64,000 bases of DNA from Microtetraspora niveoalba. GTDB lineage: Bacteria > Actinomycetota > Actinomycetes > Streptosporangiales > Streptosporangiaceae. Below, piece by piece: positions 18,193-45,409 of the stretch (position 1 is the stretch's first letter; each line of letters starts with the position of its first letter). The stretch covers positions 62,001 through 126,000 of the forward strand of contig NZ_BBYM01000023.1 in the NCBI RefSeq assembly GCF_001570405.1. The letters run 5' to 3'. The position numbers were made by a program, and so were the translations under genes. The notes below the pieces were generated by a model. It had not been told where the DNA came from. It was given only the letters and a program-made list of their open reading frames with translations, and did not search any database.

Positions 18193-18219
18193 CCGCGGCC
18201 CTCCCCCGGTCGAACGATC

Positions 18220-18233
18220 ATAAATCGATTTAT
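18220..18233. promoter_or_regulatory. LacI-type operator, perfect 14-bp palindrome
   Basis: ATAAATCGATTTAT is an exact palindrome with the central CG typical of LacI-family operators. It lies 28 bases upstream of the lacI-like start and about 90 bases upstream of the solute-binding protein start. It is strikingly AT-rich in a GC-rich genome and is positioned to control both divergent transcripts. Confidence 0.78.
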
Positions 18234-18320
18234 AACAGTATCTGCTCGGCATGGCATAAAACCTTTTACTTCTCTAGCGTTGGCCCGGTTCGATCCGGCC
18301 CATGCCGAAGGAGCCATCCC

Positions 18321-19940: not shown

Positions 19941-19946
19941 CCGCCG

Positions 19947-20909: not shown

Positions 20910-21766
20910 CGCTCGTGTCCTTCGCGCGGCGGTCCCGCGTCGCGCCCCGGCGGCGGGACGGCCTGTTCACCGTCGCGGCCGGCGTCCTCGCCGTCATCGC
21001 GGCCACCGCCGCGATCGCCGCGGTCGTCCCGTTCGCGGGCGACCCGGACGCCATCGTCGGGCCCCGGCTCTCGCCGCCGTCGGCGCGGTGGCCGTTCGGC
21101 ACCGACGCGCTCGGCCGCTCGCTGCTCGCCCGCGTGCTGGAGGGAGCCGGGACGACCCTCCTCGTCTCGATCGCCGCCGTCACGGCGACCGCCGTGGTCA
21201 GCACGCTCCTCGGCATGGTCGCCGGCTACTGCGGCGGCCCGCTGCGGGAAGCGGTGACGCGCCTCGGCGACGTCCTCTACGCGTTCCCCTCGATCGTGCT
21301 CGCGGTGCTGGTCGCCGCGGTCGTCGGCCCCGGCCTGGCCTGCGCGGTCGCCGCCATCGTGCTCGTCACCGTCCCCCTGATGACGAGGATGATCACTGCC
21401 GCGGCGGCCTCGGTCGCCGAGCGGGACTTCGTCACCACGGCGAAGATCAGCGCAGTGCCGGCCCCGGTCATCCTCGGCCGGCACGTCCTCTCGAACATCG
21501 GCGGCACGATCGCCGTGCAGGGCACGTACGCGCTCTCCGTCGGCATCCTCGTCGAGGGCGGGATGAGCTTCCTCGGGTACGGCGTGCAGCCGCCGCAGTC
21601 GTCGCTCGGCTCGCTCATCCAGCAGGGCGGGGCCTACATGGCCCACGCGCCCTGGCTGCTCTTCACGCCGGCCCTCGTGCTCGTGCTGGCGATCCTTTCG
21701 ATCAACCTCATCGGCGACACCCTCCGGGACCGCCTGGAGCCGCGCGAGACGAGGAGCCTCGGATGA
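20906..21766 (+). CDS. ABC transporter permease, DppC/OppC type
   Basis: A 286-residue permease with an N-terminal helix (FTVAAGVLAVIAATAAIAAV), the family motif RWPFGTDALGRSLLARVLEG and a C-terminal EAA-like segment (AERDFVTTAKISAVPAPVIL) ahead of FLGYGVQPPQSSLGSLIQQG. It pairs with the preceding DppB-type subunit. Start and stop overlap the neighbouring genes by ATGA, indicating translational coupling. Confidence 0.93.
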   Translation: MTLVSFARRSRVAPRRRDGLFTVAAGVLAVIAATAAIAAVVPFAGDPDAIVGPRLSPPSARWPFGTDALGRSLLARVLEGAGTTLLVSIAAVTATAVVSTLLGMVAGYCGGPLREAVTRLGDVLYAFPSIVLAVLVAAVVGPGLACAVAAIVLVTVPLMTRMITAAAASVAERDFVTTAKISAVPAPVILGRHVLSNIGGTIAVQGTYALSVGILVEGGMSFLGYGVQPPQSSLGSLIQQGGAYMAHAPWLLFTPALVLVLAILSINLIGDTLRDRLEPRETRSLG

Positions 21767-22581
21767 CCGTCCCCACCCGCGCCCCGCTCGTACACGTGCG
21801 CGGACTGTCGGCCGAGTACCGCTCCCGTCTCGGCACGATCGCCGCCCTCCGCGACGTGGACCTGTCGCTCGAACCGGGTGACCTCCTCGGCGTCGTCGGG
21901 GAGAGCGGGTCGGGCAAGAGCACGCTGTCGGCCGCGCTCGGCCGGATGTCGCCGGGCTCGTGCCGCGTCACCTCCGGCACCGTGGAGATCGGGGGCGTGG
22001 ACGTCGCCGGCCTCGACGGCCCGGCCCTGCGCGCGCTGCGCCGCGACGTGCTCGGCTTCATCCCGCAGGACCCGATCGGCTCCCTCGACCCGACCCTGCG
22101 CATCGGCCGCCAGCTCCGCCTCGCCCTCCGCCCGCTCAGGCGGCCCTACGACCACACGGCGCTCGTCGCCCTGCTGGACGGCGTGCAGATCCGCGAGCCG
22201 GAGCGCGTGTTGCGCCTCTATCCCCACGAGATCTCGGGCGGGATGGCCCAGCGGGTCGCGATCGCGCTCGCGATGGCGCGCGAGCCGCGCGTCCTCGTCG
22301 CCGACGAACCCACGGCGGCGCTCGACGCCCAGGTACGTGAGGACGTGCTCGACCTCATGGTGCGGCTCATCGCCTCGTCGGGGGCCGCGCTCCTCTGGGT
22401 GAGCCACGACCTGCGGGCGGTGCGGCGCTGGTGCACACGCGTGATGGTGATGCGGGCGGGCGAGGTGGTCGAGGCGGGACCGACCGAGGACGTGTTCGGC
22501 CGGCCGGAGCATCCGTACACGCGGCGGCTCCTGGACGCGCTCGCGATGACACCCGCCGCGGACGAACGGGAGAAGGCATGA
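21763..22581 (+). CDS. ABC transporter ATPase, DppD/OppD type
   Basis: A 272-residue ATPase. Walker A is GESGSGKST, Q-loop FIPQDPIGSLDPTLR, signature EISGGMAQRVAIALAM, Walker B PRVLVADEPTAALDAQ, H-switch WVSHDLRAV, and the oligopeptide-type C-terminal HPYTRRLLDAL. The ATG at 21763 overlaps the stop of the preceding permease. Unlike many DppD proteins it has only a short C-terminal extension. Confidence 0.93.
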   Translation: MTVPTRAPLVHVRGLSAEYRSRLGTIAALRDVDLSLEPGDLLGVVGESGSGKSTLSAALGRMSPGSCRVTSGTVEIGGVDVAGLDGPALRALRRDVLGFIPQDPIGSLDPTLRIGRQLRLALRPLRRPYDHTALVALLDGVQIREPERVLRLYPHEISGGMAQRVAIALAMAREPRVLVADEPTAALDAQVREDVLDLMVRLIASSGAALLWVSHDLRAVRRWCTRVMVMRAGEVVEAGPTEDVFGRPEHPYTRRLLDALAMTPAADEREKA

Positions 22582-23336
22582 CCACGGTGCTGAAGATGTC
22601 GGACGTGAACGTCACCTTCACCAGCGGATGGGGGCGGCGGCGCACCCGGTCCCGGGCGATGAAGGACGTCACCCTGGAGGTCGAGGCCGGGCGCACGCTC
22701 GGGGTCGTCGGCGAGTCCGGCTCGGGCAAGAGCACCACCGGATCCGTCGCGCTCGGGCTGCGCCGGCCGGACAGCGGAACCGTCGAGGTGCTGGGACGGC
22801 CCGCGGCGGAGCGCGGGCGGGCGCTGCGCGGACGGGTGCAGGCGGTGCTGCAGCACCCGCACTGGTCGTTGAACCCGCGGCGGCGCGTAGGCGTCTCGGT
22901 GCGGGAACCGCTCGCGGTGGCCGCGCGCCGTCTCGGCCGGGAGGAGCAGCGGGAGCGCGTGGTCCGCATCCTGGAGCAGGTCGGGCTCGACGCGGCGACG
23001 GCCGACCGGTACCCCCATGAGCTCTCCGGCGGCCAGCGGCAGCGGGTGTCCGTGGCGCGGGCTCTCATCACGGAGCCCGGCTTCATCGTCTTCGACGAGG
23101 CGGTGAGCGCCCTCGACGTGTCCGTGCAGTCGCAGATCCTCGAGCTCATCCGCGAACTGCAGGCCTCGCACACGTTCGGCGCCCTCTTCATCTCGCACGA
23201 CCTCGCGGCGGTACGGCGCGTGGCCGACACGATCGCGGTGATGCGTCACGGCGAGGTGCTCGAGACGGCGCCGGCCGAGCGGTTCTTCACCGATCCGGCC
23301 CATGAGTACTCGCGGCGCCTGCTCGCCGCGCTCTGA
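22578..23336 (+). CDS. ABC transporter ATPase, DppF/OppF type
   Basis: A 252-residue ATPase overlapping the preceding gene by ATGA. Walker A is GESGSGKSTT, Q-loop AVLQHPHWSLNPRRRV, signature ELSGGQRQRVSVARAL, Walker B FIVFDEAVSALDVS (Glu followed by Ala-Val instead of Pro-Thr), H-switch FISHDLAAV. It completes the heterodimeric ATPase pair of the oligopeptide-type importer. The Q-loop carries His-Pro in place of the usual Asp-Pro. Confidence 0.92.
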   Translation: MTTVLKMSDVNVTFTSGWGRRRTRSRAMKDVTLEVEAGRTLGVVGESGSGKSTTGSVALGLRRPDSGTVEVLGRPAAERGRALRGRVQAVLQHPHWSLNPRRRVGVSVREPLAVAARRLGREEQRERVVRILEQVGLDAATADRYPHELSGGQRQRVSVARALITEPGFIVFDEAVSALDVSVQSQILELIRELQASHTFGALFISHDLAAVRRVADTIAVMRHGEVLETAPAERFFTDPAHEYSRRLLAAL

Positions 23337-23357
23337 CCCACGACAGGAGGAACATCG

Positions 23358-24974
23358 ATGGACATCGCGGCGGACGCCGTCTACATCGTCGGCGAGGTCG
23401 AACCGTTCGACGGAACACCGGAGCCGGGGCCGAGGCCCACCGCGATCGCCGTGACCGGTGGACGCGTGCTCGCGGTCGGCGGCGCCGAGGTCGCCGAGCG
23501 TCATCTCGGGCCGCGCACGGTCGTGCACCGGTACGAGGACGCCGTCCTGCTCCCCGGTCTCACCGACTGCCACGTGCACCCGGTCTGGGGCTCCGTCGAG
23601 CTGGGCCGGGCCGTCGACCTCGACGGGATCGCCACCCTCGACGGCGTGCTCGGCGCGCTCCGGTCCGCCGCGGCCGGCACCGCGCACGACGAGTGGATCT
23701 TCGGCCACGCGCTCGACCCGAACGTCTTCGACGGCGCCCCGCACGGCAGGATGCTCGCCGAGGCCCTGCCGAACCGGCCCGTCGCGCTGCTGCTCCGGGA
23801 CGCCCACTCGCTCGTCGTCAGCCCGCGCGTCATCGAACTGGCCGGCCTGACCGGGCGGGAGACGTTCGACGACCGGGCGTCGGTGGCGCTCCATCCCGAC
23901 GGCGCGCCGAGCGGGCTGCTCCTCGAACTCAGCGCGATGGCGCTGGTGGAGCCCCTCTACCCGGCGCTTTCCGTACGGCAACAGGCCGACTACGTGCTCG
24001 CGGAGCTGGCGAAGACGGCCGCCGCGGGGCTCACCGGCGGTCACGCGATGGACTTCGGCCCGCCCAGCCACGAGATCTTCCTGGACATCGAGTCGCGCGC
24101 CGAGCTGCCGATCAAGCTGCGCTGCTCGCCGCTCGTCCCCGCCGACTCCGGTCCGGAGACCTGGCGGGAGATCGCCGCGCTCCTGGGCCTGCGCGGGCGG
24201 CGCTGGAGCGTCGAGGGCGTGAAGTTCATGCTCGACGGCACGATCGACAACGGCACGGCCTGGCTGGAGGAACCGGACGCCTACGGGGAGAACCACGCGG
24301 CGCTGTGGACGGACCCGGACGCCTACCGGGCGGCGGTCGCGTTCTTCGCCGGCCGCGGCGTCCCCACCGCCACCCACGCGATCGGCGACCGCGCCGTGCG
24401 CTTCGCCCTCGACGCCGTGGCCGAGGTCGGCGCCGGGCCCGCCGCCCCGCACCGGATCGAGCACGTCGAGACCATCCCGGACGAGACGGTCGACCGCTTC
24501 GCGCGGCTCGGCGTCGTCGCGAGCATGCAGCCCGTCCACGGCACCCGGCACACGCGCGCCGACCGCAGCGACAACTGGTCGGTACGGCTCGGCGCCGAAC
24601 GCGCGTCGCGCGGCTGGCGCTGCCGGGACCTGCGGGAGCGCGGCGCGGTCGTCGCCCTCGGCTCGGACTGGCCCATCGGGACGGCCGATCCGCGGGTCCT
24701 CCTCGCCGACGCGCAGCTCCGCCGTCCCGTGGAGGAGCCGGGAACCGCGCCGGTGCAGCCGGAGCAGGCGCTCACCGCCCGCATGGCCTACGAGGGCCTC
24801 ACCACCCACGCCGCGATCGCCGCCGGCCGGGCCACGAGCCGAGGGCGCGTCGCGCCGGGGTACGAGGCCGACTTCACCCTCTTCGCCGAGAACCCGCTGC
24901 GGCTCACCCCCGAGCGGCAGGCCGTCAACCCCGTGATCGCCACGGTCGTCGACGGCCGCCCGCAGCACGGCTGA
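23358..24974 (+). CDS. YtcJ-like metal-dependent amidohydrolase
   Basis: A 538-residue Amidohydro_3 protein, cytoplasmic (no signal). The metal motif LTDCHVHP follows the N-terminal beta-sandwich strand, then GVKFMLDGTIDNGTAWLEEP, THAIGDRAVRFALDAV (metal His), HRIEHVETI and ALGSDWPIG (catalytic Asp). The N- and C-terminal sandwich pieces (AVTGGRVLAVGG; GYEADFTLFAENPL) are intact. Members hydrolyse amide bonds of formamides and N-substituted compounds; the substrate is not known here. A strong GGAGGAAC site precedes it, 21 bases after the ATPase. It is paralogous to the exported protein at 26147-27940. Confidence 0.9.
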   Translation: MDIAADAVYIVGEVEPFDGTPEPGPRPTAIAVTGGRVLAVGGAEVAERHLGPRTVVHRYEDAVLLPGLTDCHVHPVWGSVELGRAVDLDGIATLDGVLGALRSAAAGTAHDEWIFGHALDPNVFDGAPHGRMLAEALPNRPVALLLRDAHSLVVSPRVIELAGLTGRETFDDRASVALHPDGAPSGLLLELSAMALVEPLYPALSVRQQADYVLAELAKTAAAGLTGGHAMDFGPPSHEIFLDIESRAELPIKLRCSPLVPADSGPETWREIAALLGLRGRRWSVEGVKFMLDGTIDNGTAWLEEPDAYGENHAALWTDPDAYRAAVAFFAGRGVPTATHAIGDRAVRFALDAVAEVGAGPAAPHRIEHVETIPDETVDRFARLGVVASMQPVHGTRHTRADRSDNWSVRLGAERASRGWRCRDLRERGAVVALGSDWPIGTADPRVLLADAQLRRPVEEPGTAPVQPEQALTARMAYEGLTTHAAIAAGRATSRGRVAPGYEADFTLFAENPLRLTPERQAVNPVIATVVDGRPQHG

Positions 24975-24994
24975 ACCCCCGAACGAAGGAAGAC

Positions 24995-26092
24995 ATGAAC
25001 CCCGAAAGGCGACACATCGCCGTCAGCGCGTCCGACCCCTTCGAGCGCGGCAGGGAGCGCGGCGAACGGCTGCGCGACACCCTCCCCGGCGGGCTCGGCC
25101 TGTACGCCGAGCTCTTCCGGCGGGCCGACCTGACCGAGGAGCGCGTACGCGAGGACGCGCGGCGCACGGCTGACGTGATCGGCGCGTTCCGCCCGCGCCT
25201 GCGGGAGGAGCTGGACGGCGTCGCCGCGGGCGCCGGGATCGACCCCTGGCGGGTCCACGCGCTCAACGCGCGCACCGAGATCCTCGCGCAGAGCGCCGAG
25301 GGCCGTCCCGGCGAGTGCTCGACCATCGTCCACCGGCTGGAGACCCGCGAGAACGGCGGGAACGGCGGGAACGGCGGGCGCACCTTCGGCGCGCAGACCT
25401 GGGACTGGCACGTGGAGCTCGCGCCGTACTGGCACACGCACGAGGTGCGCGGCGGACGGTACGACGTGGTCGGGCTCACGGAGCACGGCATCCTCGGGAA
25501 GGTCGGGGTGAACTCGGCCGGGCTCGCGCTGCACTTCAACATCCTCGGGCATCGCGAGGACGGCGTCGGCGGCGTCCCGGTGCATGTCCTCGCCGCCGCC
25601 GTGCTGGAGGAGGCCGGGTCGGTCGCGGAGGCGCTCGACCTCGTGCGTTCGGCGCCGGTCAGCGCGTCGAGCTCGTTCACCCTCTTCGACCACGAGACCG
25701 TCGTCACCACCGACATCACCCCGGTCGGGGTGTTCGTCGTCGAGCCGGTCGGCGGGACCGTCATCCGCACCAACCACTTCCTCTCCCCGACCCCCCGAGA
25801 GGGCGAGAAGAACGAGCTCTACCAGCCGGACTCGGGCGAGCGGTACGACCTCGTGGCCGCCCGCCTCGCGCGGCGGCCGGAGCCGCGCGACGCGCGCGAA
25901 CTGCTCGGCTTCCTCCACTCCGGCCCGGGCGAGCCGCGGTTGTGCTGCGTGCCGGACATGTCCCTGCCACTCGGCCAGCGGTGGGCCACCCTCGCCACCG
26001 TCGTGCTCGAACCCGCGCTCCGGACGGCGCGCGTCGCCGACGGTTCGCCGCTGGACGCACGGGACCGGCCCTGGCGGGTGCTCACGGCCTGA
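24995..26092 (+). CDS. C45-family (AAT-type) acyltransferase/amidase
   Basis: A 365-residue Ntn-hydrolase of the family of acyl-CoA:6-aminopenicillanate acyltransferase. Cys108 in RPGECSTIVHRLE is in the position of the autocatalytic nucleophile, followed by FGAQTWDWHVELAPYW and VGLTEHGILGKVGVNSAGLAL, the usual family landmarks. Precursor self-cleavage between Glu107 and Cys108 would expose the nucleophile. A short NGGNGGNGG repeat lies just after it. Family members remove or transfer acyl groups on amide nitrogen. The site AAGGA five bases upstream fixes the start. It ends the LacI-controlled operon and suggests deacylation of the imported compound. Confidence 0.85.
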   Translation: MNPERRHIAVSASDPFERGRERGERLRDTLPGGLGLYAELFRRADLTEERVREDARRTADVIGAFRPRLREELDGVAAGAGIDPWRVHALNARTEILAQSAEGRPGECSTIVHRLETRENGGNGGNGGRTFGAQTWDWHVELAPYWHTHEVRGGRYDVVGLTEHGILGKVGVNSAGLALHFNILGHREDGVGGVPVHVLAAAVLEEAGSVAEALDLVRSAPVSASSSFTLFDHETVVTTDITPVGVFVVEPVGGTVIRTNHFLSPTPREGEKNELYQPDSGERYDLVAARLARRPEPRDARELLGFLHSGPGEPRLCCVPDMSLPLGQRWATLATVVLEPALRTARVADGSPLDARDRPWRVLTA

Positions 26093-26146
26093 CCGCACGG
26101 CGCGCCGACCCGGACGGGCTCCCCGGGAGCCCGTCCGGGGTGATGA

Positions 26147-27940
26147 TCAGTCGAACTCGGTGGTGCCGTGCACGACCTTTCCGCCGACCATGGTGAGCAG
26201 GACCTCGGTCTGGGCGATCTGCTCGGCGGGCACCTTCATCACGTTGCGGTCGAGCACGATGAGGTCGGCGAACTTGCCGGCCTCGAGCGAGCCGGTGTAC
26301 GCCTCCTGCCTGAGCTGGTACGCGCCGTTGAAGGTGACCGCCCGGATGGCGGCGGCCCGGGAGAGCCGCTGGTGCGGGGTCATCGCGCCCTGCTCGGCGT
26401 ACGGGCTGTCCGGGGCGGCGGTGCGGGTGATGACGGTCCTGATCGCGCCCCACTCGTCCAGCGGATCGACCGGCCAGTCGCTCCCCAGCGAGATGCGGCC
26501 GCCGGCGCGGAGGATGTCGCCTTCCGGCTCGTAGTTGGCCCAGCGGCGGGTGCCCAGATACGGCTTGACCGACTCGACGGAGTCGGGGGCGGGCTTGGCC
26601 CAGTGGAATCCCATCGCGGCGGTGACGTTCAGCTTGGCGAAGCGGGGGATGTCGGCGGGATCGACCAGCTCGGCGTGCGCGATCGCGGGACGCACGGTGC
26701 GGTTCCCGGCCCTGCGCAGGCCGGCGTACGCGTCCAGTGCGATCCGGACCGCCCGGTCGCCGATGGCGTGGATGTGCGGATCGAACCCGGCCGCCGCGAT
26801 CTTCCGCACGACGGCGTTCAGCTTGGCCGGCTCCCAGTACTGCTCGCCCATCTTCTTGCCTGGCACCCAGTGCTTGTGCTTGTGCACCAGGTACGGCTCC
26901 AGCAGGCTCGCCGTCTGGGCGGGATGCTGCAGGACGCCGTCCATGAACAGCTTGGCGTTGCGTACGGCGACGCCCGGCCTGGGCTTGATCCGGCCGCCGT
27001 CGTACGTGCGCCGCAGCCGCGACAGCTCCGGCACCGGGTCGGTGTCGGTCACCTCGACCAGGTGCGCGAAGTGCGCCCGCGCGGTGAGCCGCCCCTGCTC
27101 GGCGAGCGTGGTGAAGGCGCGCAGCGCGTCCTCGGTCGCGATGGCGTCCATGAACGTGGTCACCCCTTGCGCGGCCAGCGCGGCCAGCGCCGTACGGGCG
27201 ATCTTCAGGTTCTCCGCACGGGTGGGCCGGGGGATCTTCGCGTCGACCAGGTTCCCGGCGCCGTCCTGCAGGATGCCGGTCGGCCGGCCCTCCGCGTCGT
27301 GTTCGATGACTCCGTCGGGCGGGTTCTTGGTGGCGGACGTGATCCCCGCCAGCTCCAGCGCCCGGCTGTTCACCAGCACGGTGTGCCCGTCGCTGGACTG
27401 GACGATGATGGGCCGCTTGGTGTCCAGGACGTCCAGGTCGGCCTTGGTGAGTTTCGTTCCCGCGGGCCGGATGGCCTGCTGGTACCAGTTGACGACGCTG
27501 ACCCAGCCGTCCGGCTCCTTCTCCGCGGTCTTGTCGAGGTACTCCTGGATGGTCGTCCGGAACTCCTCGACGGTGAGGGCGGCGTATTTCAGGTCACAGT
27601 CGAGCAGGCCCTTGCCGCCGGACATCTCGTGAAGGTGGCCGTCGTGCAGGCCCGGCATCAGCATCCGGCCCCCCAGGTTCACGACCTTCGTCCCCTTGCC
27701 GACGTACCGGGAGGCGCCCTCGGTGGTGCCGACGTAGACGATGCGGCCGCCGGACACGGCCAGCGCCTGATGGACGCTGTCGGCGGCGTCGACGGTGTAG
27801 ACGTACCCGTCGGTGAAGACGACGTCGGCGGGGCCGGCGGCGGCGCCGGCCGCCGGGGCGAAGGCGGCCTCGGTGGCCGCGACGGCGGCTGTGAGGGCGC
27901 CGGCGGTCAGCACGGTCCTGCGGCGGAGGATATTCTCCAC
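26147..27940 (-). CDS. Tat-exported YtcJ-like amidohydrolase
   Basis: A 597-residue Amidohydro_3 protein. The GTG start at 27940 (GGAG seven bases upstream) gives VENILRRRTVLTAGALTAAV, a twin-arginine signal, followed by an Ala-rich region ending before GPADVVFTDGYVYTVD. Metal and catalytic motifs are GLHDGHLHEMSGG, AKLFMDGVLQHPAQ, HIHAIGDRAVRIALDAY, AIAHAELVDP and SLGSDWPVDPLDEW. It shares architecture with the cytoplasmic protein at 23358-24974, so the region may encode matched extracytoplasmic and intracellular hydrolysis steps. It is convergent with that operon and diverges from the TetR gene after only 29 bases. Confidence 0.9.
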   Translation of the reverse strand: MENILRRRTVLTAGALTAAVAATEAAFAPAAGAAAGPADVVFTDGYVYTVDAADSVHQALAVSGGRIVYVGTTEGASRYVGKGTKVVNLGGRMLMPGLHDGHLHEMSGGKGLLDCDLKYAALTVEEFRTTIQEYLDKTAEKEPDGWVSVVNWYQQAIRPAGTKLTKADLDVLDTKRPIIVQSSDGHTVLVNSRALELAGITSATKNPPDGVIEHDAEGRPTGILQDGAGNLVDAKIPRPTRAENLKIARTALAALAAQGVTTFMDAIATEDALRAFTTLAEQGRLTARAHFAHLVEVTDTDPVPELSRLRRTYDGGRIKPRPGVAVRNAKLFMDGVLQHPAQTASLLEPYLVHKHKHWVPGKKMGEQYWEPAKLNAVVRKIAAAGFDPHIHAIGDRAVRIALDAYAGLRRAGNRTVRPAIAHAELVDPADIPRFAKLNVTAAMGFHWAKPAPDSVESVKPYLGTRRWANYEPEGDILRAGGRISLGSDWPVDPLDEWGAIRTVITRTAAPDSPYAEQGAMTPHQRLSRAAAIRAVTFNGAYQLRQEAYTGSLEAGKFADLIVLDRNVMKVPAEQIAQTEVLLTMVGGKVVHGTTEFD

Positions 27941-27969
27941 GGGGTTCTCCTTCTGAATGCGATGGGCGG

Positions 27970-28578
27970 ATGGCTGACCGGACCAAGACGCAGGAGCGTG
28001 GCCGCCAGGCACGCCGCATCGTGCTGGAGGCCGCGCTGGCCGAGGTCGCGGAGCGGCCCGTCGCCGAGATCCAGGTTCAGCAGATCGCCGACCGCGCGGG
28101 GATGAGCCCGGCACGGGTGCTGTACTACTTCCAGTCGAGGGACCGGATCCTCGCCGAGACCTTCCGCTGGAGCGAGCGCCTGCTCGCCGAGCGCCGGGCG
28201 AGCGAGCTGGACGGGGTCCCCGATCCCGAAGAGCGGCTCGAACGGTACATCCGGCTCTACCTGCCCGTTGACAGGCACGACGTCTCCTGGAAGCTCTGGC
28301 TGGAGGCCTGGCTGCGCTCGGTGACCAACGACGAGATGAGCCGAACCGCGCAGGAGATCGACAACGGCTGGATGCGGGATCTCACCGCGATCATCGAGGA
28401 CGGCGCGGCGAGCGGGATCTTCCGCGCGGTCGCCGTCGAGGACTTCCTGCCGTGGTTCAACGCCCTGCTGGACGGCCTGGCGGTCCACGTGCTCATCGGC
28501 CGCCTCAGCCAGGAGCGGGCCGTGGGGACCGCGTTGAGGCACGCCACCGGTGAGCTGCGCATCGCGCCACCTACTTGA
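27970..28578 (+). CDS. TetR-family transcriptional regulator
   Basis: A 202-residue regulator with an N-terminal helix-turn-helix (RIVLEAALAEVAERPVAEIQ, then QQIADRAGMSPARVLYYFQS) and a C-terminal ligand domain of helices ending in LPWFNALLDGLAVHVLIGRL. The 29-bp gap to the divergent Tat amidohydrolase means their promoters must overlap the opposite coding regions, so regulation of that gene by this protein is likely. No strong ribosome binding site is visible before ATG 27970. Confidence 0.9.
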   Translation: MADRTKTQERGRQARRIVLEAALAEVAERPVAEIQVQQIADRAGMSPARVLYYFQSRDRILAETFRWSERLLAERRASELDGVPDPEERLERYIRLYLPVDRHDVSWKLWLEAWLRSVTNDEMSRTAQEIDNGWMRDLTAIIEDGAASGIFRAVAVEDFLPWFNALLDGLAVHVLIGRLSQERAVGTALRHATGELRIAPPT

Positions 28579-29400: not shown

Positions 29401-29805
29401 CGTGTCTCCTCGCGGGAGTCCCGCGGCAACGCGTTTTCCGGGCGGACGGGTTGTGCACGAGCGGCTCCATCCTCCGCGGAGAAGATCTCGGAACGATCTC
29501 GGGCAAGCGCCTTTACCTTGTAGATCAGATATCTGGGTCGCCGTCATGGGAGGGCTTCGACGCCCGCTCTCGCGACCCCGCCGCCGCCACGCAGTACGGC
29601 GGCCGGCGGCGGCCCCGGCCGGGCGCGGCAGGACAGGCGAAGCGCGGCGGGGTGACCGAGAGGGGCCGGACGGCCTCCCCCACCGGGTGCCCGAAGGCAT
29701 ATGGCACGGATATCGCTGGGCCGCAATAAGGGATATGAGGCAGTCTTATACCGTTTTGGCACCAAACATGTGACATATCATCGACTGCATGATCATGGCT
29801 GTCTA
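29401..29805. other. 405-bp intergenic region upstream of the NRPS, with AT-rich core
   Basis: No gene is supported here. From about 29690 the DNA becomes unusually AT-rich for this window and contains CTTATACC near 29745-29752, an inverted repeat TTTGG-CA-CCAAA at 29755-29766, and several ATAT and CATG runs before the NRPS start. A separate palindrome CAGATATCTG lies at 29526-29535. This is the likely promoter and regulator-binding area for the NRPS operon and, on the other strand, for the frameshifted gene. An in-frame ATG at 29701 exists, but its product lacks similarity to NRPS N-termini. Confidence 0.5.
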
Positions 29806-34685
<4,880 letters not shown>

Positions 34686-34689
<4 letters not shown>

Positions 34690-37600
34690 CCGTCGTCTCC
34701 GGTGAGGACAAGCTGCGCGAGCTGCTCAACCGGCGCATCGCGCAGGCCCGGCGGGCGGCCCCCGCGGCCATCCCGCGGCGTACGGACGACGGGCCGTGGC
34801 GGCTGTCGCCGGTGCAGCGCCGCATGTGGCTCGCGTCCGAGATGGAGCGGGACAGCCCCGCCTACAACGTGCCCGTGGCGCTGCGGCTGCGCGGCGAACT
34901 GGACGTGGACGCGCTGCGCCGGGCCGTGGCGGACGTGGTGGAGCGGCACGAGGTGCTGCGCTCGACCGTGGAGGTCCGCGACGGCGAGCCGTACGCGGTG
35001 ACCGGCGGCGCGGACGGGATCGACGTCGCGGTGGAGGAGGTCGCCCCCGAGGCGGTCGAGGGCCGGATCGCGGAGCTGGCGCGGGTGCCGTTCCGGCTGG
35101 CGGAGGAGTATCCGCTGCGGGCGACCCTCCTCACGGCCGGCCCCCGGGAGCACGTGCTGCTCCTGCTCATGCACCACATCGCGATCGACGCGTGGTCGGA
35201 GCCGCTGCTCCTCGGCGATCTCGCGGCGCAGTACCGGTTCCGCCTGGGCGCCGGACCCGCGCTCGACCCGCCCGAGACGCGGTACTCGGACGTGGCCGCG
35301 TGGGCCACCGAACGCGCCGCGTCCCCCGAGACCGAACGGGCGCTGGATTGGTGGGAGGAGTGGCTCGCCGGGCTCGAACCCTCCCCCGGGCTCCTTCCGG
35401 ACCATCAGGTCCGTCCCGGCCCGCCGGACCTGGAATGGCGGGCCGGCGTCGTGGACGTGCCCCTCGCCCCCGAGACTGTCACCCGGCTGCGCGCGCTGGC
35501 CTCCGAGACCGGCGCGACCGTGTTCATGGTGCTCCTGGCGGCGCTCCAGGCCACGCTCGCCCGGGTGTCCGGCGGCTCCGGGCCGAGCGCCGACGTCACC
35601 GTGGGAGTGCCGGAGTCCGGCCGCAGGCACCCGCTGACCGAGTCCCTGGTCGGCTGCCTGGTCGAGACCCTGGTCGTACGCGGGACCGTGGACGGCGCCG
35701 GCACCGGCCGTGAGCTGGTCGGGCGGGCCCGCTCCGCCGCCCTCGACGTGTTCGGCCACGCGGACGTGCCGTTCGACCGCGTCGTGGAGCGGGTGCGCCC
35801 TCCCCGGTCCGGCACGGCGGCGCCGCTGTTCGATGTGCTGCTCAACGTCTACGACGCCCCGGCGGAGGTCGCCGGTTTCCCCGGGCTGACCGCCGAGACG
35901 GTCGAGGTGCCGCCGTTCGCGGCGAAGTTCGACCAGGCGTGGACGTTCCTCGACGACGGCACCACGCTGCGCGGCACGCTCACCTACCGCTCCGGCCTGT
36001 ACGCGCCGGACACCGCCGCCCGCCTGGCGGGCTGGTTCGGCTCGCTGCTGGACCGGCTCGTGGCGGAGCCGGACCGCCCGGTCGGCGAGCTGGAGCTGGA
36101 GCCCGGCGCCCGGCACACCCTCACCGAGCCCGCGGCGCCCGTGCTCGGCGAGCCGACCCTGCACGGCCGGATCGCCGCCCAGGCCGCCCGTACGCCGTCG
36201 GCCACGGCCGTGGTGGCGGCGGACGGCGCCCTCACCTACGCGGAGCTGGACGCTCACGCGGAACGCCTGGCCGGGCGCCTGCGCGCGGCCGGGGTGACGC
36301 GCGGCGACCGGGTCGCCCTCCTCATGGAGCGGACCCGCGACCTCCCGGTCGCCCTGCTCGCCGTGCTCAGGGCCGGGGCGGCGTACGTGCCGATCGACGA
36401 CGCCGCGCCCGCCGACCGGATCGCCGCGATGGTGGCGGCGGGCGGGGTGCGGGTCGCGGTCTGCGCGCCCGGGCTCGCGGACCGCCTGCCCGCCGGCGTC
36501 ACCGCGCTCACGCCCGGCGACCACGCGGACGACGACGGGACGTCCGGGACGCCCCGTGCCGTGAGCCGCTCGACCTCCGGCGAGGACGACGCGCGAGACG
36601 GCGGCGCGGCGGACGTTGACGGGACGTCCTCGGGCCCAGGGGACGGCGGTGCGGCGGACGGCGGAGACCTCGCCTACGTGATCTTCACGTCCGGCTCGAC
36701 GGGCACGCCCAAGGGGGTCGCGGTCGAGCATCGCCAGGTGACCGCGTACCTCGACGCGGTGCTCACCCGGGTCGGCTCGGGCGAGGCGGCCCCCCGCTCG
36801 TACGCGCTCGTCTCGACGATCGCCGCCGACCTCGGCCTGCTGAACGTCTTCGGCGCGCTGACCACGGGCGCGGCGCTGCACGTGCTCGGCCGGGAGTCGG
36901 CCGTCGATCCCGACGCGTACGCGGCCTGGCTGCGCCGCCACGAGGTGGACGCCGTGAAGTGCGTGCCCAGCCAGCTCGAACTCCTGGCCGCGCACGGCGA
37001 CCTCGCGGCGGTGCTGCCCCGCCGCCTGCTCGTGCTGGCCGGCGAGGCGACCCCCTGGACGCTGATCGACCGGATCGCGGAGGCGCGGCCCGACCTGGAG
37101 GTCCAGGTCCACTACGGCCCGACCGAGACCACGGTCTCGGTGCTCGGCTGCGCGACCGGCTCCACTCCGCGCACGGGCGCGGTGGCGCCGCTCGGCACGC
37201 CCTTCCCCGGCGTGCGCTGCTTCGTCGCCGACCCGGCCGGGCGTGCCGTGCCGCACGGCGTGGCGGGCGAGCTGTGGATCGGCGGCCCCCAGGTCGCCCG
37301 GGGATATCTGGGCGATCCCGGTGACGCGCGCTACGTGGAGCGCGCGGACGGCCGTTACTACCGGTCCGGTGACCGGGTGCGCGTCACCCGTGACGGGGTC
37401 GTGGAGTTCCTCGGCCGGATCGACGACCAGGTCAAGATCCGGGGATACCGCGTCGAGCCGGGTGAGGTCGCCGCCGCCTGCCGGGCCCTGCCCGGGATCG
37501 CGGAGGCGGTCGTGCTTCCCACGGGCGAGGGATCGGCGCGGCGGCTGGCCGCCTGGCTGGTTCCCGCCCCGGCGTCGGCGGGCACCCCGCCGACCGGCAC

Positions 37601-40600
37601 CCCGTCGACCGGCACGGCACCGACCGACGTGAGCCCGGCCGCGACGCCGGACCGCGCGGACGAAGCGGCGACCGGCGCGGCGCCGACGGCGGAGGGGATC
37701 CGCGCGGCGCTGCGACGCGTGCTGCCCGACTACATGGTGCCTTCGGCGATCACGCTCGTGGAGGCGCTGCCGCTCAACGCGAACGGCAAGGTGGACCGGG
37801 CCCGCCTGCTCGACGGGCTCGCGGACGCACCGTCCGGCGGCCTCACGGCGGACGGCGCGGGCCGCGCCCCCGAGACGGACAGCGAACGGCTGATCGCACA
37901 GATCTGGGCGGAGCTCCTCGGGGCCAGGGCCGCCGCCGCGAGCACGCGCGGCAGCGGCGGCCGTCCGATCGGCGTGAGCATGGACGGCTCCGGTGGTGGG
38001 GCTGCGAACGACGCGGACGGCTCGGGCGGCGCGGCCGCGTATGGCTCGATCGGGGCGGAGGCGGACTTCTTCGCGCTGGGCGGCGACTCCTTCACCGCCG
38101 TCCGCGTGGCGGGGAGGCTCGGCCCGGCGCTCGGGGTGACGGTCCCGCTGCGGCTGATCTTCGAGCACCCGGTGCTCGCCGACCTGGCCGCCGCGCTGGA
38201 CGCGCTGCCCGGGAGCGGGACGGCTCCCGCGCCCGCCGCGATCCCCCGGCGCGAGGGCACCGACCCGATCCCGCTGACCCCGCTCCAGCGCCAGATGTGG
38301 CTCGCCGGAGAGGTGGACCCGGACAGCGCGGCCTACAACGTGCCGGTCGTGATCCGGTTCGACGGCGAACTCGACGCGGAGGCGCTCCGGCTCGCGGTCG
38401 TGGACCTGGCCGAGCGGCACGAGGTGCTGCGCTCGACCGTCGAGGTCCGCGACGCGGAGCCGTACGCGGTGACCGGTCCGGCGTCACGGGTCGTCGTGGA
38501 GGTGGTCTCCCACCTGGACACGTCCACTCCGGGGAGGCGGGCCGACGATCCGGCGGTGGCGGCGCGCCTCGCCGAGCTGGCCGTGCGGCCGTTCCGGCTG
38601 GCGGAGGAGTATCCGCTGCGCGCGGCGATCCTGGTGCTCGGCCCGCGCGAGCACGTGCTCGCCCTCGTGCTCCATCACATCGCCAGCGACGCCTGGTCGC
38701 GCGGCGTCCTGCTCCGCGATCTCGCCGACCTCTACGCGGCGCGCACGGGGGCCCGGCCCGCGCCCGCCGCCCTCGACCGCCAGTTCGCCGACGTCGCGGA
38801 ATGGCAGCGGCTGTCCGCCGAGGCGACGGATCCCGGCTGGTGGGCGGCCAAGCTCGACGGGATGCCCGCCGAGATCGCGCTTCCCGCCGATCGGATGCGG
38901 CCGGCCGCCCCCGGCACCGGAGTGGGGCTGCTGGACCTGGAGCTGCCGGACGGGCTGGCCGCCCGGGTGCGGGCGCTGGCGTCCGCGCGCGGCGCGACGA
39001 CGTTCATGGTGCTGCTCGCGGGCCTCCAGGCGATGCTCGCGCGGATGTCGGGCGGCTCCGACATCGCCGTGGCGGTGCCCGAGTCCGGCCGGCGGCATCC
39101 CGAGACCGAACGGCTCGTCGGCTGCTTCCTGCAGACCCTGGTCATCCGTACGTCGGTGGAGGACGGCCTCACCGGCGGCGGCCTGGTCGAGCGGGCCCGC
39201 GCGGAGACGCTGGACGCGTTCGCGCACGCGGGCGAACCGCTCGAATCAGGGCAGGCGCTGCCCCAGGTGCTGCTCAACGTCTACGACGCGCCCGGTCCGA
39301 TCACCGGCTTCCCCGGTCTCGCCGCCGAGGCGGTGGAGATGCGGCCGGTGACCGCGAAGTTCGACCTGAGCTGGACCGTCCAGGACACCGGCACGGGGCT
39401 GCGGGCCGGCCTCGCGTACCGTCCCGAGCTGTTCGACGAGGCGACGGCGCGGCGGATGGCCGGGTTCCTCGTGGCGGTCCTGGACCAGATCACGGCGGAT
39501 CCCGGCCGCCTGATCGGCGACCTCGACCTCGATCCGGGCACGGACTCGACGCTGACGGGACCCCGGCGTACGCCGCTCGGCGGGCCGACCCTGCACGGGC
39601 GGATCTCCGCGCACGCGGCCCGGACCCCGTCGGCGACGGCGGTCGTCGCGGCGGACGGCACTCTCACGTACGGCGAGCTGGAGGAGCGGGCCGCCCTGCT
39701 CGCGGGCCGGCTGCGGGCGGCGGGCGTGGAGCGCGGGGACCGGGTGGCGGTCCTGATGGAGCGGACCCGTGACCTGCCGGTCGCCATGCTCGGCGCGCTC
39801 AAGGCGGGAGCGGGGTACGTCCCGATCGACGACGCCGCGCCCGACGACCGGATCGCCGCGGTGTTGTCCACCGCCGGGGCCCGTGTCGTGGTCTGCGCCC
39901 CCGACCTGGCGGCCCGCGTGCCGGACGGAGTCACCGCCGTCGTGCCCTCTCCCCCGGCCGCGGGTCCCCCGGCCGAAGACGCCTCAGCCGATGACGCTCC
40001 CGGCCGGGACGCCGTGTCGGACGGGGCCGGGCCGACGAGTGGGGAGCCGTCGCGGGCGGACGGCGGGCCGGTCCAGACGCCGCCCGGCGGCGTGGAGGTC
40101 GGGCCCGAGGACCTGGCCTACGTGATCTTCACGTCCGGCTCGACCGGCACGCCGAAGGGTGTGGCGGTCGAACACCGGAACATCACCGCCTACCTCGACG
40201 GGATCCTGTCCCGGCTCGCCCCGGCGGGGCCGCTCCGGTCGTGGGCGCTGGCGTCCACGGCCGCGGCCGACCTCGGCATCCTCAACGTCTTCGGCGCGCT
40301 GACCACCGGTGCCGCGCTGCACCTGCTCGACCGGGACACCGCGACCGACCCGCCCGCCTTCGCCGCCCACATGACCGGCCACGCCGTCGACTTCCTCAAG
40401 TGCGTGCCCAGCCACCTGGAGCTGCTGGCCTCGCACGGCGACCTGTCGGCGGTGCTGCCGCGTCGGATACTCGTCCTCGCGGGTGAGGCGGTGCCGTGGT
40501 CGCTGGTGGACCGGATCGCGGAGGTACGGCCCGACCTGGAGGTCCAGGTCCACTACGGCCCGACCGAGACGACGGTCGCGGTGCTGGGCTGCTCGACCGG

Positions 40601-43600
40601 GGACGCGCCGCGGGCGACCGCGAACGTCCCGCTGGGCCTGCCGCTCCCCGAGGCGCGCTGCTTCGTGGCCGACCGCGCCGGGCGCGCCCTGCCGTACGGC
40701 GTGGCGGGCGAGCTGTGGATCGGCGGCCCGCAGGTGGCGCGGGGCTATCTGGGACATCCGGAGGACCCGCGCTATGTGACGCGGGACGACGGCCGGTGGT
40801 ACAGATCGGGAGACCGGGCCCGGGTGACCTCCGAGGGATTCGTGGAGTTCCTCGGCCGGATCGACGACCAGGTGAAGATCCGGGGATACCGGGTCGAACC
40901 CGGCGAGGTGGCCTCTGTGTGCCGGGGCCTGCCCGGGATCGCGGAGGCCGTGGTCCTGCCGGTGGGCGAGGGCACGGGACGGCGTCTCGCCGCCTGGCTG
41001 GTCCCCACCGCGCCGGGCCCGGAGGCGACCGGCACAGGAGCGACCGGCACAGGAGCGCTGGACTCCGCCGCGCCGGGCTCGGAGGCGGCACCCGGCGCCC
41101 GTCCGGAGGGGGCGCCGACGGTGGACGGCATCCGGGCGGCGCTGCGCGACGCGCTTCCCGACTACATGGTGCCCTCGGTCATCACGCTGCTGGACGCCTT
41201 CCCGCTGAACGCCAACGGCAAGGTGGACCGTACGCGGCTGGTCGCCGAGCTGGGCACGGTGAGCGCGGGCGAGCGGGTGGACCCCGCCACCGGCACCGAA
41301 CGGCGCGTCGCCGAGATCTGGGCGGGCCTGCTCGGCCTGGACGCCGTCGGCGCGACCGACGACTTCTTCGCACTGGGCGGCGACTCCTTCGTCGCGGTCA
41401 AGGCCGTACACGAGATCGACGAGGGGCTGCGGGTCATCGACCTGTTCACCAACCCGACCGTGCGCGAGCTGGCCGCCCTCCTCGACGGCCGCTCCGGTGG
41501 GCAGGGCGGCGGGCTGCTGCACCGGCTCGGCGGCCCGAAGGCGGGCGGCACGGTGACCGCGACCGTGGTCTGCGTGCCGTACGGCGGAGGATCGGCGGCC
41601 GTCTACCGCCCGCTCGCCGAGGCACTGCCCGACGGCGTGGAGGTGCTGGCGCTCGAACTGCCCGGACACGACCCGGCCCGCCCCGACGAGGAGCCGCAGC
41701 CGGTGGAGGAGGTGGTCGAGCGCTGCGTGGCCGAGCTCGCCGCCAGGGAGAACGGGCCGATCTCGGTCTACGGCCACTGCGTCGGCACGGCGCTCGCCAC
41801 CGCCCTGGCCCTGCGGCTGGAGGAGACGGGCGTGCCGGTCACCGGCGTGTTCCTCGGCGGCAGCTTCCCGACCGCGCGGCTCCCCGGAAAGTTGTCCGCG
41901 TGGTTCAACCGGCGCCTGCCCGCGGACCGGTGGTTGTCGGACCGCGCCTACCGCGACGTCCTGCGGGCGATGGGCGGCCTGCCCGAGGACCTGGAGGGCG
42001 CCACGGTCGAGACCGCCGTCAAGGCGCTCAGGCACGACGCGCGCCAGGCGCAGGCGTGGTTCACCCGGCGGCTGGCCGAGCCGGGAGGCCACAGGCTGCG
42101 CGCGCCGGTGCTGGTCGTCATCGGCGGCGCCGACCGCGCCACCGAGCTGTACGAGGAGCGCTACCGGGAGTGGACGGCCTTCGCCGACCGGGTCGAACTG
42201 GCGGTGATCCCGAACGCCGGGCACTACTTCCTGCGCCACCAGGCCGACCAGCTCGGCGACCATCTGGCCGCGGCGCTGCGCCGCTGGACCGAGCCCGGCA
42301 CAGCGGCGGACGAGCAGGCTGACGGCGACCGGTCCGGCGCACCCGGCGGTGCCCGGCACACGGACCGGGTGACACCCGCCGGCGCCGCGACCGGCGCACC
42401 GGGCGACGGGCCGCCGGGAGCCGGAGCCTCGGCGCCCGCGGCACCGGCGCACGGTGGCCGGACGGACGGTACTCGTACGGGCGGGGCGTCGGGCCAGGCG
42501 GCGGGAGCCGGACCGCGCGGCCTGGGCGGTTTCTACACCGTGGCGCTCGGCCAGCTCGTGTCGATGGTCGGCAGCTCGCTCAGCTCGTTCGGCCTGGGCG
42601 TGTGGACGTTCCAGCGCAGCGGGGCCGTCTTCGACTTCGCCCTGGTCACGATGCTGGCGCTGCTGCCGACCGTGCTGGTGGGGCCGGTGGGCGGCGCGGT
42701 CGCCGACCGGTACGACCGGCGGTGGATCATGCTGGTCTGCGACGCGCTCAACGGCCTCGCCATGGCGGCCGTGGCGGTGCTCCTGTGGCTGGACCGGCTC
42801 GACTTCGTCGTGGTGTGCGGCGTCGTGACGCTCACGTCGGTGGTCACCGCGTTCCACCGTCCCGCCTACCTGGCGGCCATCGCGCAGCTCGTGCCCAAGC
42901 CGTACCTGCCGCAGGCCAACGCGCTGGCGCAGGCCGGGCTCGGCCTGGGCAACCTGGTCGCGCCGCTCGCGGGGGGCGCGCTCGTCGCGCTCGCCGGGCT
43001 GCCGGTCGTGGTCGGCGCCGACGTGGTGACGTTCGCGATCGCGTTCTTCTCGCTGCTCGCCGTACGGATCCCGAACCGGATGTTCCGGCGCAGGGAGGAG
43101 TCGTTCCGGTCGGCGGTGGCCGGCGGCTGGCGGTTCTTCGTGCGGCGGCCCCCGCTGATGGTGATGGCCGGATACTTCATGGTCGTCAACTACTTCACCG
43201 CGCTGACGCTCGCCGTGGTCTCCCCCATGGTGCTGTCGCTCGGCGACGCGGCCGACCTGGGCGTGGTCACGGCGGTCGGCGGCCTCGGGGCGGTGCTGGG
43301 CAGCGTCGTGATGATGGTCTGGGGCGGCACGCGCCGCCTCGCCGACGGCATGGTCGGCTTCGTGGCCCTTGCGGGGCTGGCGACCGTCCTGGTCGGCGTG
43401 ACCGGAGCGGCGGCGGTGATCCCGGTGATCGCCGTCGGGCTGGCCCTGCGCTGGGGCTCGACCAGCGTGATCAACGCCCACTGGCTGTCGATCATCCAGC
43501 TCAAGGTCAGGATCGAGCTGCAGGGCCGCGTGCTGGCCACGAACCAGATGCTGGCCACGGCGATGACGCCGGTGGGCTACCTGACGGCGGCGCCGCTCAC

Positions 43601-43823
43601 CTCCTGGTCCGAGTCGCTGACCGGGGCGGCGACGGGCCCGGCGATCGGTGTGATGCTGGCCGTGTCGGGCGTGATCCTCGCGGTGTGGGGCGTCGTCGGG
43701 TTGCGGATCAGGCGGCTGCGCCACATCGAGGACGAGCTGCCCGACGCCCTCCCGACGGCTGTCATCAGCACGGACCTCGACGAGCTGCAGGAGGAGGCCG
43801 ACCGGCACGCCCTCACCCGGTGA
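34686..43823 (+). CDS. NRPS-thioesterase-MFS fusion, C-A-T-C-A-T-TE-MFS
   Basis: A 3045-residue protein. C (34-465; HHIAIDA at 163-169), A (490-1040), T (Ser1135), C (1194-1618; HHIASDA from 1330), A (1636-2185), T (Ser2234), thioesterase (2289-2536) and an MFS transporter (about 2614-3012). Both A domains replace the usual FDAS core with AADLGLLNVFGAL/AADLGILNVFGAL and read DAVKCVPS/DFLKCVPS and VHYGPTETTV; inferred codes D-L-L-K-V-A-H-V-S/A are nearly identical, with some likeness to Asp codes. Gly/Ala/Pro-rich inserts interrupt both A domains just before the ATP loop and near the C-terminal subdomain. The thioesterase has GHCVG, so Cys2365 replaces Ser, with Asp2483 and His2513 as likely partners. 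The MFS part has about 12 helices and GGAVADRYDRRWIM. No E, MT or MbtH is present. Ends at the terminators from 43833. Confidence 0.95.
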
Positions 43824-43949: not shown

Positions 43950-44762
43950 TCACATGGCCGTGCGGGCGGACCACAGCTCGGGGAAGACGTCCCGCCGCAT
44001 CGAGCGCTCCAGCCAGCCCGCGCCGCTGGAGCCGCCGGTGCCGATCTTGGCGCCCATCGTGCGCCGCACCGCCATCAGGTGGCGGTAGCGCCACTCCGAG
44101 AACCGCTCGGCCACGTCGGTGAGCGTCTCGGCCAGCTCCCACAGCGCGTCTCCCGGCCCGTACTCCGAGTAGACGCGCACCCACGCGGCCTCCACGACCG
44201 GGCTCGGCTCGTACGGCTCGGCCGGATCGCGGGCGAGCGTCCCGGCGGGGATCGGGTGGCCGTGCCGGGACAGCAGGGCGAGCACGGCGTCGTACAGGCT
44301 CGGCGCACGCAGGGCGTCCAGCAGCTCCCGGTACACCTCGGGGTTGGCACGGTGCGGGCGGGTCAGCGGTTCCGACTTGTTCCCGAGGAGGAACTCGACG
44401 TGGCGGTACATCGCGGACTGGAACCCGGACGCCTCGCCGAGGCTCTCGCGGAAGGCGTTGAACCGGGCCGGGGTGAGCGTGCCCAGTGCCGACCAGGCCG
44501 CGTTCAGCACCTCCAGATAACGCGTGACCCTCCGCAGGACGACGGTCGCGCCGACGAGGTCGTCCTCGTCGAGCCGCCGCACGGCGAGCCGCAGCTCGGT
44601 CCTGATCAGCCCGAAATACAGCTCCATGACCTGCGTCGTCACCAGGAAGGCGGGCTCCTCGGGGACGTCGGTCCGCGGCCTCAGGAGCGTGTGCAGGACG
44701 TCGGTGCCGACGTACTCGTCATAGGGCGTGCGGTGCGTGAAGTCCACCGTGGGCGTTCGCAT
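43950..44762 (-). CDS. kynA: Tryptophan 2,3-dioxygenase
   Basis: A 270-residue haem dioxygenase that opens the indole ring of tryptophan to N-formylkynurenine. Landmarks are TPYDEYVGTDVLHTLL, FLVTTQVMELYFGLIRTEL, FNAFRESLGEASGFQSAMYR, EFLLGNKS and the C-terminal WRYRHLMAVRRTMGAKIGTG followed by GSSG, with the proximal haem His in WRYRHLM. The usual first-motif His (QHQ) is replaced by TTQ. Start 44762 has GGAGGGG upstream. No kynurenine formamidase or kynureninase is adjacent. Placement beside an NRPS recalls clusters where such an enzyme supplies kynurenine, but it faces the NRPS and may instead serve tryptophan breakdown under the divergent AsnC-type regulator. Confidence 0.9.
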   Translation of the reverse strand: MRTPTVDFTHRTPYDEYVGTDVLHTLLRPRTDVPEEPAFLVTTQVMELYFGLIRTELRLAVRRLDEDDLVGATVVLRRVTRYLEVLNAAWSALGTLTPARFNAFRESLGEASGFQSAMYRHVEFLLGNKSEPLTRPHRANPEVYRELLDALRAPSLYDAVLALLSRHGHPIPAGTLARDPAEPYEPSPVVEAAWVRVYSEYGPGDALWELAETLTDVAERFSEWRYRHLMAVRRTMGAKIGTGGSSGAGWLERSMRRDVFPELWSARTAM

Positions 44763-44950
44763 ATCCCCTCCTTGTTCCTCCTCCAATGATCCGCGACCAC
44801 ACGAAAGGGGGAAATAGGATGAAAAAGGCGATAAGACTGATCGGCCTTCCGTTCCGAAGCCAGATCGACGGATCGCCTTCCATTCATGCGGAGCCCCGGC
44901 CCTCACCGCCGCGGGCTCCGCCGTACGGGCCGATCCGGGGAGGCGTGCGG

Positions 44951-45409
44951 GTGGACGCGATGGACTGGGCGATCCTGGCCGAGCTGCAGGCGGACGCGCG
45001 GTTGTCGTACAGCGAGCTGTCCCGGCGGGTGCACATGTCGGCGCCGGCGGTGGCGGAGCGGGTCCGGCGGCTGGAGGAGAGCGGGGTGATCTCCGGCTAC
45101 CACGCCCATGTGGACCTCGGACTGGCCGGGCGCACGGTGCGGGCGCTGATCCGCATGTCCTGCTACGGACCGCGCTGCGTGCTCCGCGACGAGGAGGCCC
45201 TGGCCCGGCCGGAGATCCTCCAGGTGTACCGCGTCACCGGCGACACCTGCTGCCTGCTCCTGGTCGCGGTGCCGTCGATGGAGGCGTTCGAGGCGCTGAT
45301 CGACCTGCTCGCGCAGTACGGCAGGCCGTCCAGCACGATGGTCCTGTCCAGCCCGGTGCCGTGGCGGCCGGTCACCGCGCCGCCCGCGACCGGCCCGGCG
45401 TCAGGATGA
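44951..45409 (+). CDS. Lrp/AsnC-family regulator
   Basis: About 152 residues: winged helix-turn-helix (MDWAILAELQADARLSYSEL, then SRRVHMSAPAVAERVRRLEE) and a C-terminal RAM/AsnC ligand domain (ALIRMSCYGPRCVLRDEEAL; VYRVTGDTCCLLLVAVPSME). These proteins sense amino acids and often control amino-acid catabolism. It diverges from kynA, so tryptophan or kynurenine sensing is plausible. GTG 44951 is chosen for the GGGGAGG site seven bases upstream. An ATG at 44819 also has a fair site (GGGGGAAATAGG) but would add a Pro- and Arg-rich leader starting with rare ATA and AGA codons. Confidence 0.85.
   Translation: MDAMDWAILAELQADARLSYSELSRRVHMSAPAVAERVRRLEESGVISGYHAHVDLGLAGRTVRALIRMSCYGPRCVLRDEEALARPEILQVYRVTGDTCCLLLVAVPSMEAFEALIDLLAQYGRPSSTMVLSSPVPWRPVTAPPATGPASG

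Follow-up and report, generated by a model that had tools for sequence, protein, structure and literature searches.

An exporter-fused nonribosomal peptide synthetase of Microtetraspora niveoalba and its conserved clade with ObiF-like thioesterases

Organisms that make small peptides usually rely on separate proteins to synthesize, release, and export them. A stretch of 64,000 nucleotides from Microtetraspora niveoalba (contig NZ_BBYM01000023.1, positions 62,001 to 126,000; referred to here as the window) raises the question of whether these tasks can be joined in one chain and what such a joint may mean. An earlier note, made from the letters of this DNA, had described a nonribosomal peptide synthetase (NRPS), a thioesterase (TE), and a major facilitator superfamily (MFS) transporter in a single frame of 3045 residues at the end of a four-module assembly line, and had proposed that release and export could be coupled there, with the peptide channeled straight to the pump. 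The architecture is borne out by the stop-free frame and by Pfam, which places the domains in the order of a modular NRPS with a terminal TE and assigns four modules to the upstream gene and the fusion gene together (Table 1). The fusion gene overlaps the upstream NRPS gene by 4 nt (ATGA), a perfect AGGAGG (6/6) precedes its start, and its GC3 of 0.95 is comparable to that of neighboring genes of the window.

Table 1. Features of the fusion gene and adjoining genes in the window (positions are those of the window; C, condensation; A, adenylation; T, carrier domain)
Feature	Position	Strand	Details
First NRPS gene	29701-34689	+	1662 aa; A-T-C-A-T, modules 1-2; Pfam
NRPS-TE-MFS fusion gene	34686-43823	+	3045 aa; C-A-T-C-A-T-TE-linker-MFS
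Condensation domain 1	34803-36098	+	aa 40-471; Pfam PF00668
Adenylation domain 1	36159-37790	+	about aa 492-1035; pocket code DLLKVAHVS
Carrier domain 1	38046-38198	+	aa 1121-1171; Pfam PF00550
Condensation domain 2	38262-39518	+	about aa 1193-1611, limits approximate; two Condensation stretches in Pfam
Adenylation domain 2	39609-41252	+	about aa 1642-2189; pocket code DLLKVAHVA
Carrier domain 2	41292-41486	+	about aa 2203-2267; two PP-binding stretches in Pfam
ObiF-like thioesterase	41562-42254	+	aa 2293-2523; Pfam and alignment to ObiF1
TE triad residues (predicted)	41778-41780; 42132-42134; 42222-42224	+	Cys2365; Asp2483; His2513; alignment to ObiF1
Disordered Ala/Gly/Pro-rich linker (predicted)	42297-42515	+	aa 2538-2610; AlphaFold2 pLDDT <50, composition, alignment
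MFS exporter (predicted), 12 TM helices	42525-43736	+	aa 2614-3017; Pfam, AlphaFold2, profiles
MFS motif A GGAVADRYDRRW	42690-42725	+	within MFS exporter
C-terminal tail, predicted cytoplasmic	43737-43820	+	family pattern LRxxEDxLPDA...DxDxLQxxAD starts just 5' of tail; alignment
Tryptophan 2,3-dioxygenase	43950-44906	-	right after fusion gene
Tryptophan 2,3-dioxygenase with divergent AsnC/Lrp regulator	43950-45409	regulator +	the two overlap head to head

Whether the protein is one chain depends first on the integrity of the joint. The same open joint between TE and MFS occurs in close orthologues from independently assembled genomes (Microtetraspora NBRC 16547, M. glauca, M. fusca, Bailinhaonella, and Sphaerisporangium), which rules out an assembly artefact; the stop or frameshift that the earlier note had thought resequencing might reveal is found in none of these orthologues. 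The length of an open frame is in itself no proof of fusion, as in two other loci long stop-free frames contain NRPS and MFS coding sequence in different frames. These frames, of more than 1600 aa (L087, 3886-9914; L164, 1833-7937), each span two genes of GC-rich DNA. Because stop-free length misleads in such DNA, only domain-verified cases enter the counts of fusions given here. A different way to arrive at separate TE and MFS chains would be an internal start or cleavage within the linker, which contains a few in-frame GTG codons and whose predicted disorder would make it a likely protease target. However, the best match to AGGAGG before any in-frame start checked in the linker is at most 4/6, compared with 6/6 both at the NRPS start and at a split MFS gene of the same genome, and orthologues do not share the potential starts of the linker. 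Separate translation of the MFS part, another reservation of the earlier note, is thus rejected for lack of a usable start, and two chains by either route are highly improbable.

The type of the thioesterase, which lies outside the earlier note, is a rare one. Its closest solved relative is ObiF1 (162.8 bits, versus 72 bits for the next), and the ObiF1 entry is also the best fold match of the AlphaFold2 model described below, followed by RifR and SulM. Cys2365, Asp2483, and His2513 align with the ObiF1 triad of Cys1146, Asp1254, and His1284 (PMC6668435), so that the domain has the Cys nucleophile, the Asp on the loop after β7, and the His by which the ObiF/SulM type is defined (PMC6668435 and PMC11298585). 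Among structurally characterized NRPS thioesterases, only ObiF1 and SulM pair Cys with Asp at that place, and both close four-membered rings (PMC11298585). The nucleophile is Cys in 121 of 130 fused proteins and Ser in the other 9, with the Asp ("position II") and the His present in all 130; the motif around it is GHCVG here and GHC[VLM]G in the family. ObiF, the obafluorin NRPS (PDB 6n8e, PMC6668435), shares the Cys within GHCxG, the Asp at position II, and the His, but it lacks an MFS and carries an MbtH domain after its TE where the fusion protein has the transporter. The TE of the sulfazecin NRPS SulM (PDB 8w2c, PMC11298585) is alike in fold and in being a Cys-TE with Asp at position II, but it has Gln-Cys-Asn in place of GHC[VLM]G and is far more distant in sequence than ObiF1. 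A sulfazecin-type β-lactam NRPS does not fit the motif GHCVG, nor did the genes scanned near the NRPS genes of the window include a sulfotransferase.

This kinship invites the idea of a distinct class in which an ObiF-type Cys TE would make a strained or reactive product, for example a β-lactone, and hand it at once to the attached exporter so that none builds up in the cell. That idea is an unlikely one. The pocket codes of the terminal adenylation domains, read with a GrsA reference segment that matches 1amu at 100%, vary from DLLKVAHVA here to DLTKVAHVS in many members, and are presumably Ser-like in the SAR324 member and Gly-like in Nonomuraea. Because the terminal codes differ between members, no single product chemistry can be given for the fused family; an ObiF-type TE is likewise not proof of a four-membered ring, which a Gly terminus cannot form. 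Assignment of adenylation substrates was dropped, as a literature search found the code DLLKVAHVS and its relatives in no paper.

For the C-terminal 770 residues an AlphaFold2 model was built from 20 relatives. It shows a folded TE, then about 73 residues (around aa 2538-2610) whose pLDDT is below 50, and 12 transmembrane helices. The linker, of 73-79 residues and composed chiefly of Ala, Gly, and Pro, is unconserved in the alignment of relatives, among which its length ranges from 14 to 138 aa. MFS_1 (aa 2620-2961) and MFS_3 (aa 2617-2989) both score above the Pfam gathering cut-off. The low-complexity linker of about 75 residues and the complete transporter of about 12 helices that the earlier note described thus hold up under the topology prediction and profile searches that it recommended. 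Since Arg/Lys-rich loops follow TM2 and TM6, both ends of the MFS are predicted to be cytoplasmic, on the same side as the TE. The 12 helices, motif A, and profile matches place the transporter in the efflux-antiporter branch: it matches the TIGR00900 H+ antiporter, Mef macrolide efflux, and EntS (64 bits) profiles, although its TIGR00900 score of 165.8 bits falls below the curated cut-off of 319.6, which makes it a relative of that subfamily rather than a certified member. These efflux profiles, with MdfA among the fold matches of the MFS model, support outward transport; a PDB sequence search with the MFS part gave no match.

Conservation within the MFS bears on whether it serves chiefly as something other than an exporter of fresh product. 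Its main role could be to anchor the protein in the membrane, or to confer self-resistance by pumping out product that has re-entered, in which case the fusion would matter for localization or co-expression and not for hand-over. The unconserved, disordered linker is consistent with such a role, the Mef and EntS matches fit self-resistance as well as export, and separate MFS genes beside NRPS genes exist elsewhere. Against it, motif A and numerous positions of the transport core do not vary even as far as the SAR324 member, and no fission is seen among the 127 fused members. Because these residues are kept over such deep divergence, the MFS appears to be constrained as a transporter and not as an anchor alone; the loss of transport residues entertained in the earlier note is not seen, and the anchor or self-resistance role is fairly unlikely. 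How the two ends of the joint might communicate is a further matter. Since the linker is predicted to be disordered, is unconserved, and varies from 14 to 138 aa, a flexible tether that raises local concentration is favored over a closed channel. Linker length and sequence give no sign of a structured TE-MFS interface among the relatives, and the C-terminal tail was ruled out as a fusion-specific docking motif because several split relatives have similar tails.

How widely the architecture occurs was assessed with several queries. A combined TE and MFS query, applied to one genome per species, returned 42 loci, in all of which (42/42) the frame is single and stop-free. Three Microtetraspora orthologues are 85-86% identical, with gene order conserved around the fusion gene, and fused loci are also present in Bailinhaonella, Sphaerisporangium, Actinomadura, Nonomuraea, Micromonospora, Streptomyces, Kitasatospora, and Antribacter; megaplasmids of Embleya and Streptomyces clavuligerus carry a fused synthetase as well. 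Outside Actinomycetota, the fusion is found in two Chloroflexota bins and one SAR324 bin. Because this first query used TE and MFS together, the survey was repeated with the MFS alone, which matched in 29 of 81 Streptosporangiales genomes. Scanned with home-built domain profiles, the fetched loci gave 96 MFS rows, 77 with T-TE-MFS in one frame and 19 with a separate MFS. Adding the window's own genome (four fused, one split) and three further loci (L061 and L169, fused; L070, separate) brings the count for the MFS query to about 83 fused of 104, the rest separate, and so provides the frequency of TE-MFS fusions and split homologues that the earlier note had proposed to survey. Single Streptosporangiaceae genomes have up to eight MFS matches of the fused-type family. 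When sampling was extended across the class, a related MFS turned up in just one genome from outside the family, as a separate gene adjoining an NRPS; phage records gave no match. In the reverse direction, a TE-only query produced about 84 strong matches, and in every case but one the locus also carried an MFS. The sole exception (L167, 6605-10612) is a C-A-T-TE protein with an ObiF-like Cys TE (GHCAG) that lacks the MFS. Its genome also has the fused kind and offers a natural comparison.

The split relatives show what the unfused state looks like. The window's genome encodes four fused synthetases (C23, C6, C19, and C56), a multiplicity that the earlier note did not include, and one split pair (C15, which is L067). 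In this pair the NRPS ends C-A-T-TE, and the MFS gene, whose ATG overlaps the stop codon of the NRPS, has a perfect AGGAGG ahead of its start; on plasmid C of Trichormus variabilis (L055), an NRPS-TE gene and an MFS gene lie 14 nt apart. Separate MFS genes directly beside NRPS genes are found in these two loci and in L072, L073, L075, L078, and L081. L067 and L055 resemble the fusion in having a homologous MFS directly after a C-A-T-TE NRPS, but they consist of two genes rather than one chain, their MFS domains lie outside the fused clade, and their TEs are unmatched by a query of the fused type. The MFS of L067 also has its own start and ribosome-binding site, whereas the fusion-gene linker has none of the kind.

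Such pairs suggest how the fusion may have arisen, and the tree of MFS domains how often. On a large tree of 151 MFS domains (127 fused, 24 separate), the fused and separate states require one change, compared with 22.7 in shuffles. In a more careful tree of 37 thinned MFS rows, all fused domains fall on one side of a branch with support of 99/97, recovered in 100% of bootstrap trees; fused MFS domains differ down to 32% identity, and the split NRPS neighbors lie outside the clade. The protein encoded at 34686-43823 belongs to it by its one-frame T-TE-MFS order, the placement of its MFS, and its ObiF-like TE. With no fission seen on the tree among the 127 fused members, a single old fusion is the simplest reading, though not proof, as the root was placed at the midpoint. 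The TE and MFS halves travel together, as indicated by the correlation of their distance matrices (r = 0.87; 0/999 permutations as high). The clade also takes in members from Chloroflexota and SAR324, which suggests interphylum transfer, although these come from bins and could be misbinned.

This pattern also bears on whether the fusion is close to neutral, an ancient joining of an overlapping NRPS-MFS pair that has rarely been undone and whose persistence says little about function. The few overlapping bases of L067 and the 14 nt of L055 are one step from fusion, and the linker resembles unconstrained sequence, with weak third-position bias. Yet one stop and one start would undo the fusion, and this is seen in 0/127 members that reach down to 32% identity across phyla; TE and MFS have moreover stayed matched (r = 0.87). 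Near-neutrality is accordingly quite improbable.

The reading that seems likely, taken as a whole, is of a synthetase tethered to the membrane, in which the Cys-TE sets a small peptide free beside the protein's own exporter, because the open frame, the domain order, the intact Cys-Asp-His TE, the 12-helix MFS, and the fused clade all point the same way. The TE cysteine would take over the tetrapeptidyl chain from the final carrier domain and release it by cyclization or hydrolysis. The product would then find itself at the inner face of the membrane, no farther from the MFS than the linker allows, and the MFS would export it, probably through proton antiport. What the fusion would offer is local concentration and a fixed 1:1 stoichiometry, an advantage should the product be toxic or reactive within the cell. 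Several observations weigh against this tethered-exporter reading: linker length and sequence are unconserved with no sign of an interface, an ObiF-type TE also occurs without an MFS (L167), terminal adenylation codes differ among members (DLTKVAHVS, DLLKVAHVA, and the putatively Ser-like and Gly-like ones), drift could maintain the fused state if fission is rare, and the tree is midpoint-rooted. The coupling of release and export proposed in the earlier note has evolutionary support, from a single fused clade without observed fission and from the TE-MFS correlation (r = 0.87); straight channeling to the pump is less well supported, as a disordered and unconserved linker of 14-138 aa fits a tether better.

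Neighboring genes and known systems give some further context. The tryptophan dioxygenase is unsupported as a part of the pathway; because it and the AsnC-type regulator are conserved in Microtetraspora orthologues alone, the pair is probably a separate unit. Upstream of the NRPS genes, at 17173-28114 of the window, lie a LacI regulator, a peptide-type ABC importer (substrate-binding protein, two permeases, and ATPase), and two amidohydrolases. Fused synthetases of a shorter type, C-A-T-TE-MFS with about 1800 aa, often adjoin a pair of genes for the alpha and beta E1 subunits of a thiamine-dependent 2-oxoacid dehydrogenase (L064, 4218-6688; L065, 2756-6845; L046, 15463-16716; about 37 of 99 shorter-type loci), in what looks like a conserved gene cluster; L065 also has a stand-alone T-C-T gene. 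The enterobactin pair EntF and EntS likewise unites a terminal C-A-T-TE NRPS with an MFS exporter of the EntS/MFS_3 kind for one product, but as two genes and with a TE of another type. A siderophore reading of the EntS-like MFS was ruled against, as no siderophore genes, whether catechol or hydroxamate, were found among those scanned around the NRPS genes.

The name "non-ribosomal peptide synthetase/MFS transporter" is in use at NCBI, and such proteins are known to annotation pipelines. No paper describing an NRPS-TE-MFS fused family was found in open full text, in agreement with the earlier note's remark that such annotations exist and that the function of these fusions is little studied. 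Open full-text searches for NRPS-MFS or TE-MFS fusions led only to fungal domain tables (PMC9495618 and PMC11057048). One table entry lists a Verticillium polyketide synthase with terminal TE-MFS, so that release and MFS domains share one protein (PMC9495618); this is a fungal polyketide synthase, alike in its listed domains.

Judged from sequence, the fusion protein belongs to a conserved clade of exporter-fused NRPSs with an ObiF-like TE, a finding of wider reach than the earlier note stated. In more than 130 synthetases of Actinomycetota and of bins from two further phyla, a rare Cys TE and the exporter have stayed in a single polypeptide after what looks like one ancient fusion. The persistence of the joint suggests a physical link between the production, release, and export of these compounds, and the fused clade makes this coupling of synthesis and export open to experiment. 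An ObiF-like TE followed by an MFS also provides a sequence handle for unexplored, possibly strained-ring peptides in Streptosporangiaceae.
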